From Neorhizobium galegae (lineage in GTDB: Bacteria; Pseudomonadota; Alphaproteobacteria; Rhizobiales; Rhizobiaceae), in contig NZ_JAGIPH010000005.1 of the NCBI RefSeq assembly GCF_017877135.1, positions 124,001-188,000 of the forward strand: a stretch of DNA of 64,000 bases, read 5' to 3'. This document shows positions 11,124 through 19,546 of this stretch, in pieces (positions within the stretch are counted from its first letter, which is position 1; each line of letters opens with the position of its first letter). The position numbers were made by a program, and so were the translations under genes. The notes under the pieces were generated by a model. The model made no database searches. It was not told where the DNA came from and saw only the letters and a program-made list of their open reading frames with translations.

Positions 11124-12656
11124 TTACAGCGGAATGGTATCGTGTTTCTTCCAGTGCGTCGTCACCTGCTTGTTTCGAAGGCTTGCAAAAGCGCGTGCGA
11201 TGCGACGGCGCGAGGAATGCGGCATGATCACTTCATCGATGAAGCCGCGCTCGGCCGCGACGAAGGGATTGGCGAACCGCTCCTCGTATTCTTTCGTGCG
11301 CGCGGCAATCTTGTCCGGATCGCCAAGCTCGGAACGATAGAGGATTTCGGTCGCGCCCTTGGCGCCCATCACGGCAATTTCGGCCGTTGGCCAGGCATAG
11401 TTCACATCGGCACCGATGTGTTTGGATGCCATCACGTCATAGGCGCCGCCATAGGCCTTGCGCGTGATCAGCGTCACCATAGGTACTGTCGCCTCCGAAT
11501 AGGCAAACAGCAGCTTTGCGCCATGCTTGATGACGCCGCCATATTCCTGCGCCACACCCGGCAGGAAGCCCGGCACATCGACGAGCGTCAGAAGCGGGAT
11601 CGAAAAGGCATCGCAGAAGCGCACGAAGCGGGCCGCCTTGCGCGAGGCATCGATATCGAGACATCCCGCAAGTACCATGGGCTGGTTGGCAACCACCCCG
11701 ATCGTCTGGCCCTCCAGGCGAATGAAGCCGGTGATGATGTTGCGGGCAAAGGCCTCCTGGATCTCGAAGAAATCGCCCTCGTCGGCCACGGCCCGGATCA
11801 GCTCCGCCATGTCATAAGGCTTGGCCGCGCTGTCGGGGATCAGAGTGTCGAGCCGCGTCTCGATGCGGGCCGGATCGTCGTGGAAGGGACGCACCGGCGG
11901 CTTTTCGCGGTTGTTGAGAGGCAGGAAATCAAATAGCTGGCGCACCGCCTCCAGCGTTTCGACATCGTTCTCATAGGCCGCATCGGCCACCGACGATTTT
12001 TTCGTATGGGTCGAGGCACCGCCGAGTTCTTCGGCGGTCACGATCTCGTTCGTCACGGTCTTGACCACGTCAGGACCGGTCACGAACATGTAGGAGGTGT
12101 CGCGCACCATGAAGATGAAATCGGTCATGGCGGGCGAATAGACAGCGCCGCCGGCGCAGGGGCCCATGATCACGGAAATCTGCGGAATGACGCCGGAGGC
12201 CTCGGCGTTGCGGCGGAAGACTTCCGCATAACCGGCAAGCGAGGCAACCCCCTCCTGGATGCGGGCGCCGCCGGAATCATTCAGTCCGATCACCGGCGCG
12301 CCGACGCGCACCGCCATATCCATGATCTTGCAGATTTTCTGTGCATGGGTTTCCGACAGCGAGCCGCCGAGCACGGTAAAATCCTGGGAAAACACATAGA
12401 CTTGGCGGCCGTTGATCGTGCCCCAGCCGGTGACGACGCCATCGCCGGCCACCTTCTGCTCGGCCATGCCGAAATCCACGGCGCGGTGGGTCACATACAT
12501 GTCGTATTCTTCGAACGAGCCCTCATCGAGCAGCACCTCGATCCGTTCGCGCGCCGTGAGCTTGCCCTTGGCATGCTGGGCATCGATGCGTTTCTGTCCG
12601 CCCCCGAGCCGCGCTTCGGCGCGACGCACCTCGACCTCATTCAAAACTGCGCGCAT
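11124..12656 (-). CDS. pccB: Propionyl-CoA carboxylase beta subunit (carboxyltransferase)
   Basis: PccB transfers the carboxyl group from biotin to propionyl-CoA, giving (S)-methylmalonyl-CoA. The 510 residues show both carboxyltransferase half-domains. The N-half carries [16 protein letters not shown] and the oxyanion segment [17 protein letters not shown]. The C-half carries [25 protein letters not shown] and [21 protein letters not shown] lies about five bases before the ATG. It is first in a minus-strand run of seven genes ending with pccA, so the two subunits lie in one region but are separated by five unrelated-looking genes. Confidence 0.95.
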
Positions 12657-12849
12657 GATCCCTCCCGGCTTCAGCCTCTTATCGCTACCGCTTGCCGCGC
12701 GGTCAAGGAAGCTGGAAAATAGTTGTAGGTCAATAGGCTAGCGGCCGGCAAAACGGGCCCTCTCGCGGCTACCGCAGACTTGACGTCGGTCAAATCCGCA
12801 AGCCCGGAGTGCCTGCGGCACCGATGTCCACGCCCCGGACAGCAGCCCC

Positions 12850-14054: not shown

Positions 14055-15269
14055 TTAAGCGACGGCGCGGGCCAGTGCGCAACGCGACCAGAGCTGGTGC
14101 AGGGCGCCGACCAGATGCTCGATATCGGCATCCGAATGCAAAGGCGTCGGGGTAATGCGCAGGCGTTCTGTCTTGCGCGGCACCGTCGGGTAGTTGATCG
14201 GCTGCACATAGACGTCGGAATGATCCAGCAGCAGGTCCGAGATCCATTTGCACTTGGCCGCATCGCCCACCATGACCGGCACGATATGGCTTGGATTGGT
14301 CATGTGCGGAATGCCGCGGGCATCGAGCGACGAGCGCAGCTTGCGCACGCGGTCCTGATGGCGGGCGCGCTCGAACGGGCTGTTCTTCAAATGGCGGATT
14401 GAGGCGACGGCACCGGCGGCAAGCGCCGGCGGCAGGGCCGTGGTGAAGATGAAGCCGGAGGCAAAGGAGCGGATGAAATCGCACACGGCATGCGAAGCGG
14501 CGATATAGCCGCCCATCACGCCAAAGGCCTTGCCGAGCGTGCCTTCAATGATGGTGATGCGGTCCATCAGGCCTTCGCGTTCGGCAATACCGCCGCCGCG
14601 CGGACCATACATGCCAACGGCATGCACTTCATCGAGATAGGTCATGGCGCCGTACTGGTCGGCCAGATCGCAGATCTCGCGAATGGGCGCGATATCGCCA
14701 TCCATGGAATAGACGCTTTCGAAGGCAATCATCTTAGGCGCCTTCGGATCGGCAGCCTTCAGCTTTGCTTCCAGATCGTTCAGATCGTTATGCTTCCAGA
14801 TGACGCGTTCGCACTTGCCGTGGCGAATGCCCTCGATCATCGAAGCATGGTTCAGCGCATCGGAAAAAATGATGAGGCCGGGGATTTTCTGGCCCAGCGT
14901 GCCAAGCGTTGCCCAGTTGGACATATAGCCGGAATTGAAGATCAGGCCGGCTTCCTTGCCATGGAGATCGGCCAGTTCCTGTTCCAGAAGAACATGGTAG
15001 TGCGTGGTGCCAGAAATATTCCGGGTGCCTCCCGCACCCGCGCCACAGTGATCGATGGCCTCTTTCATGGCCTCGATCACGGCCGGATGCTGGCCCATGC
15101 CGAGATAGTCATTCGAACACCAGACGGTGACGTCCCGCTTGCCTTCCGGCGTATGGCGGGTGGCGCGGGGAAATGCGCCGCGGTGTCTTTCGAGGTCCGC
15201 GAACACGCGGTAGCGGCCTTCCTGATGAAGGCTGTCCAGCTCGCCCTTGAAAAATGCCTCGAAATCCAT
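14055..15269 (-). CDS. hemA: 5-aminolevulinate synthase
   Basis: This PLP enzyme condenses glycine with succinyl-CoA to 5-aminolevulinate, the entry to haem by the Shemin route used in alphaproteobacteria. The 404 residues match the family length. Landmarks are [12 protein letters not shown] at the start, [12 protein letters not shown] near 51, [14 protein letters not shown] near 77, [17 protein letters not shown] near 211, and the PLP lysine K247 in [13 protein letters not shown] lies seven bases before the ATG at 15269. An upstream FNR/FixK box and matching -10 element suggest induction at low oxygen. Transcription ends at a clear terminator. Confidence 0.97.
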
Positions 15270-15383
15270 TCTCACACTCCAGAATCTGGCATTGTTTTTC
15301 GGTCCTCGGCGCTTTTGCGTCAACCCCGGCGGGTACGATTCCGTACTACCTGCGGCAATTGGACCGTTTTTTTGAATTATTCC

Positions 15384-15431
15384 AATTTGAATTTATAGAA
15401 CCATCGATAAGAGAAAGTTGATTTGCATCAA
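15384..15431 (-). promoter_or_regulatory. hemA promoter with FNR/FixK-type anaerobox
   Basis: A perfect 14-base box, TTGAT-TTGC-ATCAA, lies at 15418-15431. On the minus strand a TATAAAT -10 element follows at 15397-15391, predicting a start near 15384. The box centre is then about 41 bases upstream of that start, the position of class II FNR-activated promoters. The hemA ATG is about 115 bases further down. The regulator (FnrN, FixK or FnrL type) is not in the window. Confidence 0.8.
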
Positions 15432-15439
15432 GAGAACGC

Positions 15440-15465
15440 AAAAAGGGGGCGGCCGAAGCCGCCCC
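15440..15465 (-). terminator. Rho-independent terminator of the molybdenum hydroxylase operon
   Basis: On the minus strand an 8-base GC stem (arms 15446-15453 and 15458-15465) closes a C-UUCG-G tetraloop and runs into T residues at 15440-15444. It stands just after the FAD subunit stop codon and nine bases before the hemA anaerobox, so it insulates the hemA promoter from readthrough. Confidence 0.88.
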
Positions 15466-15484
15466 AGTTGCTCGCCTTGGAAGC

Positions 15485-16282
15485 TTAGCCGGCCGCGATG
15501 ACGGCGCGTTTGGCCATGACCCGCACCAGATTGGCGCGGTATTCGGCGCTCGCATGCATGTCCGACATGAGGTCCGCCGGGTCGATCGAAGCCGCCTTGG
15601 GTGATTCGGGCGACCAGTCGGCCGCAAGGGCCGCCTCGATCGTTTCGGCGCGAAACACGCCGTTCGATCCGGCCCCCGTCACCGCAACCCGCACACCGCC
15701 TGCCGCTTTTGCAACAAAGACACCGGTGATCGCATAGCGCGAGGCCGGGTTGCGGAATTTCGCATAGCCTGCCTTTTCGGGCGCCTCGAAGGAGACGGCC
15801 GTCACCAGTTCGCCCTCTTCAAGCGCTGTTTCGAAGAGGCCCGTGAAGAACTCTTCGGCCGGAATTTCGCGGCGGTCGGTGATGATCGTTGCCGCAAGTG
15901 CCAGCATGGCGGCCGGATAATCGGCCGCCGGATCGTTGTTGGCAATCGATCCGCCGATCGTGCCCATGTGGCGCACATGCGGATCACCGATCATGGCGGC
16001 AAGCTCGCAGATGGCCGGACAGACCGCACGAACGGCCGCAGACGAGGCCACATCCGCATGCGGCGTGGCACCGCCGATGCGCACGGTGTGGCCGTCCACG
16101 GTGATACCCTTCAGGGCAGCGATATGGCGCAGGTCGATGAGGTCCGAGGGAGCGGCAAGCCGCTGCTTCATCGTGGCGATCAGCGTCATGCCGCCGGAGA
16201 GGTAGCGCCCCTCGTCATGAGAGGAGCGCAGGTTGACCGCCTCATCGACCGAGGAGGCGCGGTGGTAGCTGGTGGCATACAT
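15485..16282 (-). CDS. Molybdenum hydroxylase FAD-binding (medium) subunit, CoxM-like
   Basis: The 266-residue flavoprotein subunit accepts electrons from the iron-sulfur subunit. The N-terminal FAD-binding motif SGGMTLIATMKQRL lies near residue 28. The second motif, MGTIGGSIANNDPAADYPA, lies near 105, and a CO-dehydrogenase flavoprotein C-terminal domain follows. The ATG at 16282 is used because GGGGAG lies eight bases upstream; the open frame extends further, but into low-quality arginine- and proline-rich sequence. It is the last gene of the small-large-medium operon and is followed by a strong terminator. The electron acceptor is unknown. Confidence 0.92.
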   Translation of the reverse strand: MYATSYHRASSVDEAVNLRSSHDEGRYLSGGMTLIATMKQRLAAPSDLIDLRHIAALKGITVDGHTVRIGGATPHADVASSAAVRAVCPAICELAAMIGDPHVRHMGTIGGSIANNDPAADYPAAMLALAATIITDRREIPAEEFFTGLFETALEEGELVTAVSFEAPEKAGYAKFRNPASRYAITGVFVAKAAGGVRVAVTGAGSNGVFRAETIEAALAADWSPESPKAASIDPADLMSDMHASAEYRANLVRVMAKRAVIAAG

Positions 16283-16301
16283 GGTCGTAATCTCCCCGTC
16301 C

Positions 16302-18668
16302 CTATTCGGCCGCCTGGCGCATCTGCCCATCCTGCAAGGCACTCCACACCTTGAGCGGCGTGGCGGGCATGTGCAGGTGGTTGATGCCGATGGCGTCGGT
16401 GATGGCATTGATCAGTGCCGGCGGCGAGCCGATGGCGCCGGCCTCGCCGCAGCCCTTGATGCCGAGCGGATTGCCCGGGCACGGCGTATTCTGGTGCGAG
16501 AGCGTGAAGGAGGGCAGGTCGTCGGCGCGCGGCATGGCATAATCCATGTAGCTTGCCGTCAGAAGCTGGCCGTTCTGTTCGTCATAACGCACCTCTTCCA
16601 GAAGCGCCTGGCCGATGCCCTGGGCAAGCCCGCCATGCACCTGCCCCTCGACGATCAGCGGATTGATGATGTTGCCGAAATCATCCGCTGCGACGAACTG
16701 CACGATCTCCGTCTTGCCGGTTTCCGGGTCGATTTCGACTTCTGCGATGTAGCAGCCGGCCGGGAAGGTGAAGTTGGAGGGATCGTAGAAGGCGGTTTCC
16801 TTGAGGCCCGGTTCCATGCCCGAGGGCAGGTTATGGGCGGTATAGGCGGCGAGCGCCACCTGGAACCACGGCAGGCTCTTGTCGGTGCCGGCCACTTTGA
16901 CATCGCCGTTTTCGATGACGATGTCGCTCTCATCCGCCTCCATCAGGTGGGCGGCGATCTTCTTCGCCTTCATCTCCACCTTGTCGAGCGCCTTGACGAT
17001 GGCCGACATGCCGACGGCTCCGGAACGCGAGCCATAGGTGCCCATGCCCATCTGCACCTTGTCGGTATCGCCATGGACGATGTTGACGCTCGCAATCGGC
17101 ACACCCAATCGATCGGCAATCAGCTGGGCAAAGGTGGTTTCATGACCCTGGCCGTGGCTGTGCGAGCCGGTCAGCACCTCGATCGTGCCAACAGCGTTGA
17201 CCCGCACTTCCGCCGATTCCCAGAGACCGACGCCGGCGCCGAGCGAACCGACCGCCTGTGACGGCGCAATCCCGCAGGCCTCGATATAGCAGCTCATGCC
17301 GATGCCGCGCTTCATGCCCCGGCTCTCCGCCTCGGCGCGCCGGGCGGCAAAACCGTCCCAATCGGCCGCCGCAAGGGCGGCATTCAGCGAGGCATCATAG
17401 TCCCCGGCATCGTAATTCATGATGACCGGTGTCTGGTGCGGGAAGCTGCGGATGAAATTCTTGCGCCGAAGCTCTGCCGGCGACAGGCCAAGCTCGCGGG
17501 CGGCCACTTCCATGGTGCGTTCCAGGAGATAGGTCGCCTCCGGGCGCCCGGCCCCGCGATAGGCATCGACGGGCACGGTGGTCGTGTATACGGTGCGGAC
17601 ATTGGCGTGGATCGCCGGAATGTCATACTGGCCAGACAGAAGCGTCGCATAAAGATAGGTCGGCACCGCCGAGGAGAAGAGCGACATATAGGCGCCGAGA
17701 TTGGCGATCGTGTCGACCTTCAGGCCGATGATGCGATGGTCCTTGTCGAAGGCCATCTTCACCTTCGATACATGGTCGCGGCCATGGGCATCGGTGAGAA
17801 AGGCTTCGGTGCGGTCCGAGGTCCACTTGACCGGCACGCCGGTTTTCTTGGACGCCCAGAGACAGACGATCTCTTCCGGATAGATATAGATCTTGGAGCC
17901 GAAGCCGCCGCCGACATCGGGTGCGATGACACGCAGCTTGTTTTCCGGGGCGACATTATAGAAGGCGCTCATCACCAGGCGCGCCACATGTGGGTTCTGG
18001 CTGGTGGTGTAGCAGGTGAAGTGGTCTTCCGCGGCGTCATAGATGCCAAGCGTGGCGCGCGGCTCCATCGGGTTCGGAGACAGGCGGTTGTTCAGGATCT
18101 CGATTTCGGTGACATGGGCTGCCTGCGCAATCGCAGCATCGGTTGCGGCCGGATCGCCGATCTGCCAGTCGAAGATGAGGTTGCCGGGCGCTTCCGGATG
18201 GATCTGCGGGGCACCGGGCTGAAGCGCTGCCACGGCACTGGTCACGGCCGGCAGCTCCTCGTAATCGACAACCACGGCTTCCGCTGCGTCACGCGCTTCG
18301 CCCGCACTGTCTGCCACGACGATTGCCACCGCATCACCGACATAACGCACGATATCGATGGCGAGTGGACGCCAGGCGCCCATCTTCATCGGCGTGCCGT
18401 CCTTGGAATGGATCATCCAGCCGCAGATGAGATTGCCAATGCCGTCCGCCTGCAGCTGGCGACCTTCCAGCACGTCGATGACGCCGGGCATGGCGCGTGC
18501 GGCCTCGATGTCGATGCCGTTGATTTTCGCATGCGCGTGCGGGCTGCGCACGAAGGCTGCAAACTTCATGCCGGGCACGACCATATCGTCGGTATAACGG
18601 CCCTTGCCGGTCAAAAATCGCTTGTCTTCCTTGCGGGCGACGCGCGCACCAATGCCTTCCATTCCCAT
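16302..18668 (-). CDS. Molybdenum hydroxylase large subunit, CoxL-like form II
   Basis: The 788-residue molybdopterin-cytosine-dinucleotide subunit of the xanthine oxidase family. The N-terminal aldehyde oxidase a/b hammerhead begins [22 protein letters not shown]. The Mo-cofactor domain carries GGGFGSK near 253 and the active-site loop AYRGAGRPE at 369-377. The catalytic glutamate lies in [12 protein letters not shown] near the C-terminus. The loop is the form II type, not the AYRCSFR loop of genuine aerobic CO dehydrogenase, so CO oxidation should not be assumed. GGAGGAGA precedes the ATG. Substrate unknown; no MoCo-insertion gene is nearby. Confidence 0.93.
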
Positions 18669-18688
18669 TATCGTCTCCTCCCGAAACG

Positions 18689-18776
18689 AGCGAATAGTGA
18701 GTAGCGAATAGCGAATAGGGGAGAGGGAACGCGACGGGCCGCCCAGCAGCCGACTATTCGCTACATCCTATTCGCT
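18689..18776. repeat. Long imperfect inverted repeat inside the molybdenum hydroxylase operon
   Basis: Two 23-base arms (18689-18711 and 18754-18776) are built of the unit AGCGAATAG twice with a four-base spacer. They are complementary at 19 of 23 positions around a 42-base loop; a third GCGAATAG copy adjoins the left arm. The element fills most of the gap between the small and large subunit genes. RNA hairpin formation is inferred. Confidence 0.75.
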
Positions 18777-18781
18777 TCTGT

Positions 18782-19273
18782 CTATTCAGCCGCCTGGCGC
18801 GCTGCGCCCTGCATCTCTTCATTGGCCGCCAGCACCGCCTTGACGATGTTGTGGTAGCCGGTGCACCGACAGATATTGCCGTCCAGCTCGTGGCGGACCG
18901 TGTGTTCGTCCAGATCACCGCCATGGCGGGCAATCATGTCGACGGCGGTCATCACCATGCCCGGCGTGCAGAAGCCGCACTGCAATCCGTGATGCGTATT
19001 GAAGGCGGCCTGCACCGGGTGCAGTTCACCCTGCCCGGCGATCCCTTCGATCGTGGTGACGGTGGAGCCCGCGGCCTGAACCGCCAGGATGGAACAGCTC
19101 TTCACCGAGCGACCATCCAGATGCACCACGCAGGCACCGCACTGCGTGGTATCGCAGCCGACATGCGTTCCGGTCAGCCCCAGTTTCTCGCGGATGAAAT
19201 GCACGAGCAGCGTGCGATCGTCGCACTCCCCCGACATCGCCCGGCCGTTCACCGTCAACGTCACTTTCGTCAT
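18782..19273 (-). CDS. Molybdenum hydroxylase [2Fe-2S] (small) subunit, CoxS-like
   Basis: A 163-residue iron-sulfur subunit. The N-terminal plant-ferredoxin-type cluster is ligated by C40, C45, C48 and C60 ([16 protein letters not shown] then SC). The C-terminal helical cluster is ligated by C99, C102, C135 and C137 (CGFCTPGM and ICRCTGY). It passes electrons from the Mo site to the FAD subunit. GGGAGGACATC precedes the ATG at 19273. It is first in the operon; a 113-base gap with a long inverted repeat separates it from the large subunit gene. Confidence 0.95.
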
Positions 19274-19546
19274 GATGTCCTCCCTGCGCCTCCTCAAGCA
19301 CTGACGTGTCTCCTCAAACACGTTGCCGCATCATTTGCCTTTTTTGACCGCCGATCAACCGATACTTTTTGCGCAAAGGCGTTTGCGAGAGCATGAGATT
19401 GCCACTTTGTTAAATAAAGCTAAAGTGTGCGGCTGGACTTCCAGATCCCGAATCCTACTCTCACCTGCAGCGGGTTAACCCGGCTGGCCGGGAGGGCGAA
19501 GACAAGCTTCGGAACGACCAGCGCAAGTGACAATGTGGAGAGAGTA

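Follow-up and report, generated by a model that had tools for sequence, protein, structure and literature searches.

The product of hemA makes the first committed precursor of haem, and the question posed by this locus in Neorhizobium galegae is whether a single oxygen-responsive site accounts for control of the gene. A preliminary description had noted a perfect FNR/FixK box upstream of hemA and had proposed that the strain raises aminolevulinate production under low oxygen, for example during microaerobic respiration or bacteroid life. Analysis of the whole 64,000-nucleotide stretch of DNA carrying the gene (the window), of related hemA loci, and of the genome suggests that the hemA promoter most probably responds to oxygen and iron together, with binding and the direction of control predicted from sequence. 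In the model that we consider likely, hemA possesses its own regulatory region, in which one promoter (P1) would depend on FnrN/FixK for its activation and would be shut off by Irr during iron shortage, and a second promoter (P2) would be basal or ActR-assisted. Each part of this control region is of an already known kind. If the model is correct, a low-oxygen promoter that fires only with haem-loaded Irr would explain the supply of haem for the cbb3 oxidase, and the gating of P1 by Irr would avoid porphyrin damage during iron shortage. The layout predicts two transcription starts, an Irr footprint over +1, and a relocated Irr site in relatives.

A conserved anaerobox and a probable promoter upstream of hemA

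The hemA gene (14055..15269, minus strand, ATG at 15269-15267) encodes a 5-aminolevulinate synthase of 404 amino acids, which scored 695.4 bits against TIGR01821 (cut-off 338.55) in a profile search. An in-frame TTG further upstream (15323) was rejected as the start codon, because the ATG at 15269 aligns with relatives and the TTG forms part of a conserved TTGACG element. Column conservation also marks TTCTGGAG (15277..15284, minus strand), which includes a likely ribosome binding site, GGAG. The preceding gene (15485..16282) is co-directional on the minus strand and encodes a FAD-binding subunit of a molybdenum hydroxylase family enzyme, an assignment made at the family level with no model above its cut-off in the profile search. 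Three neighbouring minus-strand open reading frames (ORFs) upstream of hemA (15485-19321), the first examined by profile search and the other two read by eye, resemble a molybdenum hydroxylase operon of the CO/xanthine dehydrogenase family. A terminator-like hairpin (15446..15465, minus strand) lies 3' of the upstream gene, with its stem ending 14 nucleotides before the anaerobox; one such hairpin was detected, compared with a mean of 0.6 in shuffled sequences. Because this hairpin follows the preceding co-directional gene, the anaerobox most likely belongs to hemA.

The anaerobox (15418..15431) reads TTGAT-TTGC-ATCAA on the plus strand and TTGATGCAAATCAA on the hemA (minus) strand, and is indeed the exact match to the FNR/FixK consensus that had been reported. 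Its centre (15424.5) lies 155 nucleotides before the hemA ATG. The P1 -10 region (TATAAATT, 15390..15397, minus strand) contains TATAAAT at 15397-15391, a form that is not common to most relatives, several close ones having CATAAAT. Conservation centres on a TA at 15395-15394 (T in 63/81 and A in 76/81 sequences). Among related sequences with a box 140-165 nucleotides before the ATG, this TA falls 21 nucleotides (15 sequences) or 22 nucleotides (42 sequences) past the box in 57/57 cases (56 loci plus the window). If the TA is taken as -12/-11, the P1 transcription start would be near 15383 (15382..15385, minus strand) and the box centre at about -41. The proposed -10 spacing, which had placed the box in this same position, is thus borne out by sequence and conservation, with the start inferred from the conserved spacing. 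A scan of 15200-15600 for consensus sigma-70 promoters returned none (mean of 0.3 in shuffles). With +1 at 15383, the edge of the box at 15418 corresponds to -35. For activating anaeroboxes of R. leguminosarum, the published positions relative to the transcription start are -32 to -34 (PMC7888657), a numbering that would agree with the hemA box if it is counted to the near edge.

Two sets of loci were used for comparison. The first comprised 80 loci, the best among 473 confirmed relatives, from Rhizobium, Neorhizobium, Agrobacterium, Shinella and similar bacteria; its counts are not independent because the loci are related to one another. The second, wider set (52 genera) was drawn from 60 regions chosen from the best-scoring among the matches listed (297 genomes, 279 with a match); five regions were excluded (L131, L145, L148 and L151, in which the start is not ATG, and L166, of 9 nucleotides) and 55 were kept. 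The two sets overlap, since L110 is identical within L035 and L116 within L084.

The preliminary description had suggested comparing the box in related genomes, and this comparison found it to be conserved. The sequence TTGAY-N4-RTCAA is present at most 300 nucleotides upstream of hemA in 58/80 loci of the first set, compared with 1/1721 control tiles of those loci, and lies 149-158 nucleotides from the ATG in 56 of the 58 box-bearing loci and at 212 nucleotides in the other two. A perfect match to the strict form TTGATNNNNATCAA occurs in 23/81 sequences (80 loci plus the window), and 29/55 loci of the second set carry TTGAY-N4-RTCAA, a count that includes a doubtful match in L128 (see below). 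The anaerobox is not universal, since TTGAY-N4-RTCAA is absent within 300 nucleotides from 22/80 loci of the first set and from 26/55 of the second. Among the 22 box-less loci are some from strains labelled R. leucaenae, lusitanum, rhizogenes, dioscoreae, metallidurans and tubonense.

Further conserved blocks lie downstream of the anaerobox. Block B (TTGGAATAATTCAAAA, 15370..15385, minus strand), delineated by conserved columns in 81 sequences, overlaps the inferred P1 +1. Block C (TGCGGCAATTGGACC, 15351..15365, plus strand) reads TTGCCGCA on the hemA strand, and block D corresponds to the GGGTTGAC element. A simple class II oxygen promoter, in which the FNR/FixK box alone matters and these blocks are leader or translation signals, is an unlikely account of the region. 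The box and the -10 spacing suffice to explain oxygen control, but many columns of blocks B to D are conserved as much as the box or more, and all 22 box-less loci of the first set retain block B (at most two mismatches), as well as block C and the block D element (at most one). In addition, sites matching block B precede rirA and mbfA, and no conserved RNA pair is predicted for the leader. We favour the model in which the anaerobox is one of several regulatory elements.

A probable second promoter

Promoter P2 would consist of a -35 element, TTGACG (15318..15323, minus strand), of which TTGAC is found in 81/81 sequences, and a -10 element, GAAAAA (15295..15300, minus strand), 17 nucleotides past the -35 element. 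In 72/81 sequences, the hexamer at a spacer of 17 has A as its second base and carries three or more A residues in positions 2-5; the commonest forms are CAAAAC and GAAAAC, with GAAAAA in the window. A first-match count with another pattern gave a spacer of 17 in 53/81 sequences, 15 in 7, 18 in 6, 19 in 3 and 20 in 7, with no match in 5/81. The -10 element has none of the T residues found in the E. coli consensus, and the sigma-70 consensus scan did not detect P2; TTGACG-N17-GAAAAA resembles alphaproteobacterial housekeeping promoters. From these sequence features, and from three relatives that keep the spacer length around an Irr-like box (see below), we judge that P2 is probably a real promoter. 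With its +1 near 15288, it would give rise to a short-leader transcript, made at a basal level or with the help of ActR. The R. sphaeroides hemA gene has reportedly been found to have two promoters.

The centre of block C lies at about -70 from the inferred P2 +1. This block resembles one RegR box, TGCGGCAAAGGAGCC (PMC4064962, Table 1), and its assignment as a RegR/ActR-like site is uncertain. When scored with a RegA matrix built from 33 published ChIP sites, block C in the window obtains a score that chance would produce about 0.8 times in every 300 bp, and the best match to the matrix falls in the 80-99 nucleotide bins in 45/81 sequences. The genome has adjacent genes for ActS (594.6 bits versus a cut-off of 350) and ActR (325.3 bits versus 250). 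On balance, the chances that ActR acts on block C appear to be about even.

An RNA leader in which blocks C and D serve as riboswitch-like parts or as a small RNA target, rather than as parts of a second promoter, would be consistent with the location of these very conserved blocks within the P1 leader and with the distance of the P2 -10 element from the E. coli consensus. However, an RNAalifold consensus fold of 21 hemA leaders yielded no pair, and the single Rfam match at E = 1 or below in 14900-15600 was a sub-threshold match to PhrS (15.2 bits versus 37) over the terminator. Furthermore, P2 retains its 17-nucleotide spacing in relatives whose spacer is occupied by an Irr-like box (see below). 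An RNA leader was rejected as the main reading on the Rfam and folding results, and we regard it as improbable. The second promoter P2 is retained as the preferred interpretation of this segment.

A putative Irr operator over the P1 start

A pattern built from block B and the ICE motif, TTRGAAYNRTTCNAAA, matched five sites in the genome, compared with none for the reversed control. These are located at hemA, rirA (gene product 290.2 bits versus a cut-off of 193), mbfA (564 bits versus 450), a gene for a cysteine desulfurase-like protein (L107) that passes no curated model above its cut-off, and L104. The L104 site (TTGGAACTATTCAAAA, 1501-1516) is flanked by genes for a GST-like protein and a LysR-type regulator, neither of which has an obvious connection to iron. 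With at most one mismatch, the block B pattern was found in 68/80 upstream regions of the first set and 19/55 loci of the second. Irr itself is encoded in the genome (234.3 bits versus a cut-off of 150, and 212.6 versus 170).

Both rirA (PMC7762939) and mbfA (PMC4902296) are described as repressed by Irr, and the Irr/ICE operators known at these genes have a matching sequence before the same genes in N. galegae. In Rhodobacter, the mbfA start is located inside the Irr box (PMC3413700). The sufA gene is described as Irr-repressed in B. japonicum, and in B. diazoefficiens haem biosynthesis genes are repressed by Irr, with hemA not named in the available portion of the source (PMC9409073).

Block B is thus most likely an Irr operator, and we predict with considerable confidence that Irr binds it. 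It is quite unlikely that block B is instead the site of another regulator or an AT-rich element of the start site. The assignment rests on sequence, one of the five genomic matches (L104) has no adjoining iron gene, and the cysteine desulfurase-like protein passes no curated cut-off. In contrast, rirA and mbfA are published Irr targets, the rirA site (TTGGAATTGTTCAAAA) is identical to hemA block B of L007, L024 and L033, and 0/1721 control tiles contain block B with at most one mismatch.

The position of the proposed Irr operator over the inferred +1 predicts repression. Haem-free Irr bound there would block P1 when iron or haem is short. Such an arrangement would serve to make more aminolevulinate for cbb3-oxidase haem at low oxygen while holding production back during iron deficiency, in which porphyrins would accumulate. 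No TTGAY-N4-RTCAA sequence is present within the 3 kb surrounding the rirA and mbfA sites, whereas hemA combines both types of site. In the portions of the literature searched, we found no description of hemA as a target of Irr in Rhizobiaceae; a comparative study (PLoS Comput Biol 2006) may well list hemA, and therefore we claim no priority for this link.

The location of the Irr-like site differs among relatives. In L126 and L128, the 17-nucleotide P2 spacer is arranged as TTGACG-ATTGGAATGATTCAAAA-[CG]AAAAC, with the Irr-like box in the spacer. In L134, the Irr-like box TTAGAACGGTTCCAAA spans the 17-nucleotide spacer plus the last base of the -35 element, and the length is again kept. At all three loci, it is the P2 spacer, and not the P1 start, that holds the Irr-like box. 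A perfect anaerobox is kept in L126 and absent from L134; the match in L128 sits inside a terminator-like hairpin and may not be a true box. The distance between blocks B and C is approximately 100 and 134 nucleotides longer than usual in L125 and L127, with the distance from the anaerobox to block B unchanged, indicating that the hemA region behaves as two modules. In the second set, GGTTGACG is present in 10/55 loci and TTGCCGCA in 18/55 (controls 23/1721 and 41/1721), which suggests that P2 and block C fade with distance and are found mainly in closer relatives.

These arrangements lead us to a tentative proposal, somewhat short of an even chance, that hemA of Rhizobiaceae is a compact integrator, in which P1 responds to oxygen and is gated by haem or iron, P2 responds to redox through ActR, and the Irr operator has been relocated to the P2 spacer in some lineages. 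If so, the move of the operator from the P1 start to the space between the P2 -35 and -10 elements would mean that iron control switches promoter during evolution. As a separate observation, the genome (G024) that carries L134 has two hemA copies (L134 and L135), which are separated by about 12 kb and differ strongly in their upstream regions, and among the matches listed the same pair occurs in two further genomes of that genus.

Candidate low-oxygen regulators and the likely setting of hemA control

Searches of the window and the genome were used to evaluate the rarity of the anaerobox. The hemA box is the sole match to TTGATNNNNATCAA with at most one mismatch in the 64-kb window, and shuffled windows contain a mean of 1.13 such matches (at least one in 67/100 shuffles). 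Since about one near-match per window is expected by chance, the case against chance is made by position and conservation. That the box is a functionless chance match in this strain is very improbable, because the frequency of sites with at most one mismatch is outweighed by the fixed position of the box and its presence in 58/80 loci versus 1/1721 tiles. Elsewhere in the window, a degenerate FNR-type site (TTGACGTCGGTCAA, 12780-12793) lies between a serine-hydrolase-like ORF and a carboxyltransferase gene (11124-12656).

The perfect anaerobox occurs at six places in the 5.2 Mb genome, compared with none for the reversed control pattern, and TTGAY-N4-RTCAA occurs at 23 sites, compared with three for the control. 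Open reading frames were inspected around 15 of these 23 sites, hemA apart, and at least three sites overlap long ORFs; these (L004, L094 and L101) may be chance matches. Anaeroboxes also precede ccoN, ccoG, pseudoazurin and OmpW-family genes.

Candidate regulators of both types are encoded in the genome. An FnrN-like protein has the sequence LCKSC-EVRHKGM-C (a CX2CX7C pattern plus an inner Cys, as read by eye); its best model is FnrL, at 200.6 bits under the curated cut-off of 300. The gene for this protein and hemN are arranged divergently, and a perfect box lies in the region that separates them. A FixK-like gene, so called by best match with a score under the curated cut-off of the FixK model, is flanked by an OmpR-type response regulator and a hybrid PAS kinase (PAS/kinase/receiver sensor), an arrangement like that of the hFixL-FxkR-FixK system. 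A perfect FxkR K-box, GTTACA-N4-GTTACA (GTTACAGACTGTTACA), precedes the FixK-like gene (L170 1953-1968, C4) in this genome without nifH. The R. leguminosarum hFixL-FxkR-FixK/FnrN network has similar regulators, anaerobox and K-box sequences, and a similar box position; in contrast, its chromosomal fxkR-fixK-hfixL cluster is described as being without a K-box (PMC7888657).

With high confidence, we predict that P1 is activated at low oxygen by an FNR/FixK-type protein. Activation through the class II box at about -41 would occur via FnrN (Fe-S, near-anoxic), via the hFixL-FxkR-FixK branch (microoxic), or via both. The original proposal that low oxygen raises aminolevulinate production therefore holds with respect to FNR/FixK activation of hemA, which is supported by the box, its spacing and conservation, the regulators, and the boxes at hemN/fnrN, ccoN and ccoG. 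The proposal was incomplete in overlooking the Irr-type operator over the inferred start and the probable second promoter. Given these two features, aminolevulinate is probably raised under low oxygen if iron or haem allows. The suggested example of bacteroid life was not borne out. A profile search of the genome (rated 99.99% complete) for nifH returned four matches, all below the family cut-off, and a bacteroid or nitrogen-fixation setting is therefore rejected for this strain. A search of the genome for copper nitrite reductase gave no match. The likely setting is microaerobic respiration through the cbb3 oxidase.

The FNR part of this control is not new in kind, and the assumption that hemA is often tied to FixK, FnrN or FnrL agrees with the literature: hemA, hemC and hemN are listed among the targets of FnrN/FixK in Rhizobiales (PMC4999443), and FnrN/FixK control of hemA is already known in alphaproteobacteria. 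Bradyrhizobium and other alphaproteobacteria with hemA under FixK/FnrN are among the closest known systems. Microoxia induces hemA of Bradyrhizobium diazoefficiens, while the level of the HemA protein does not change (PMC6515984), such that more transcript need not mean more aminolevulinate. Iron control is assigned differently in B. japonicum, where that of hemA is credited to Fur and that of hemB to Irr (PMC3836376).

In Rhodobacter sphaeroides, FnrL and PrrA bind upstream of hemA as detected by ChIP-seq, and the hemA transcript shows no significant change in an fnrL mutant despite FnrL binding (PMC4263372). A RegA ChIP peak with activation is also described for Rhodobacter hemA (PMC5359404, section 16). 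No Irr operator is mentioned for Rhodobacter hemA in the available portions of these sources, whereas in N. galegae an Irr-type site overlaps the predicted FNR-dependent start. Haem synthesis is described as not being lowered by R. sphaeroides Irr under iron limitation (PMC3413700).

Two other perfect FNR boxes in the genome are recorded here as separate observations. One (L171 2266-2279) is located about 65 nucleotides before the OmpW-family gene; R. sphaeroides ompW is listed in a table of CrpK binding (PMC4263372). The other (L001 1501-1514) lies directly before a small ORF that matches DUF6455.
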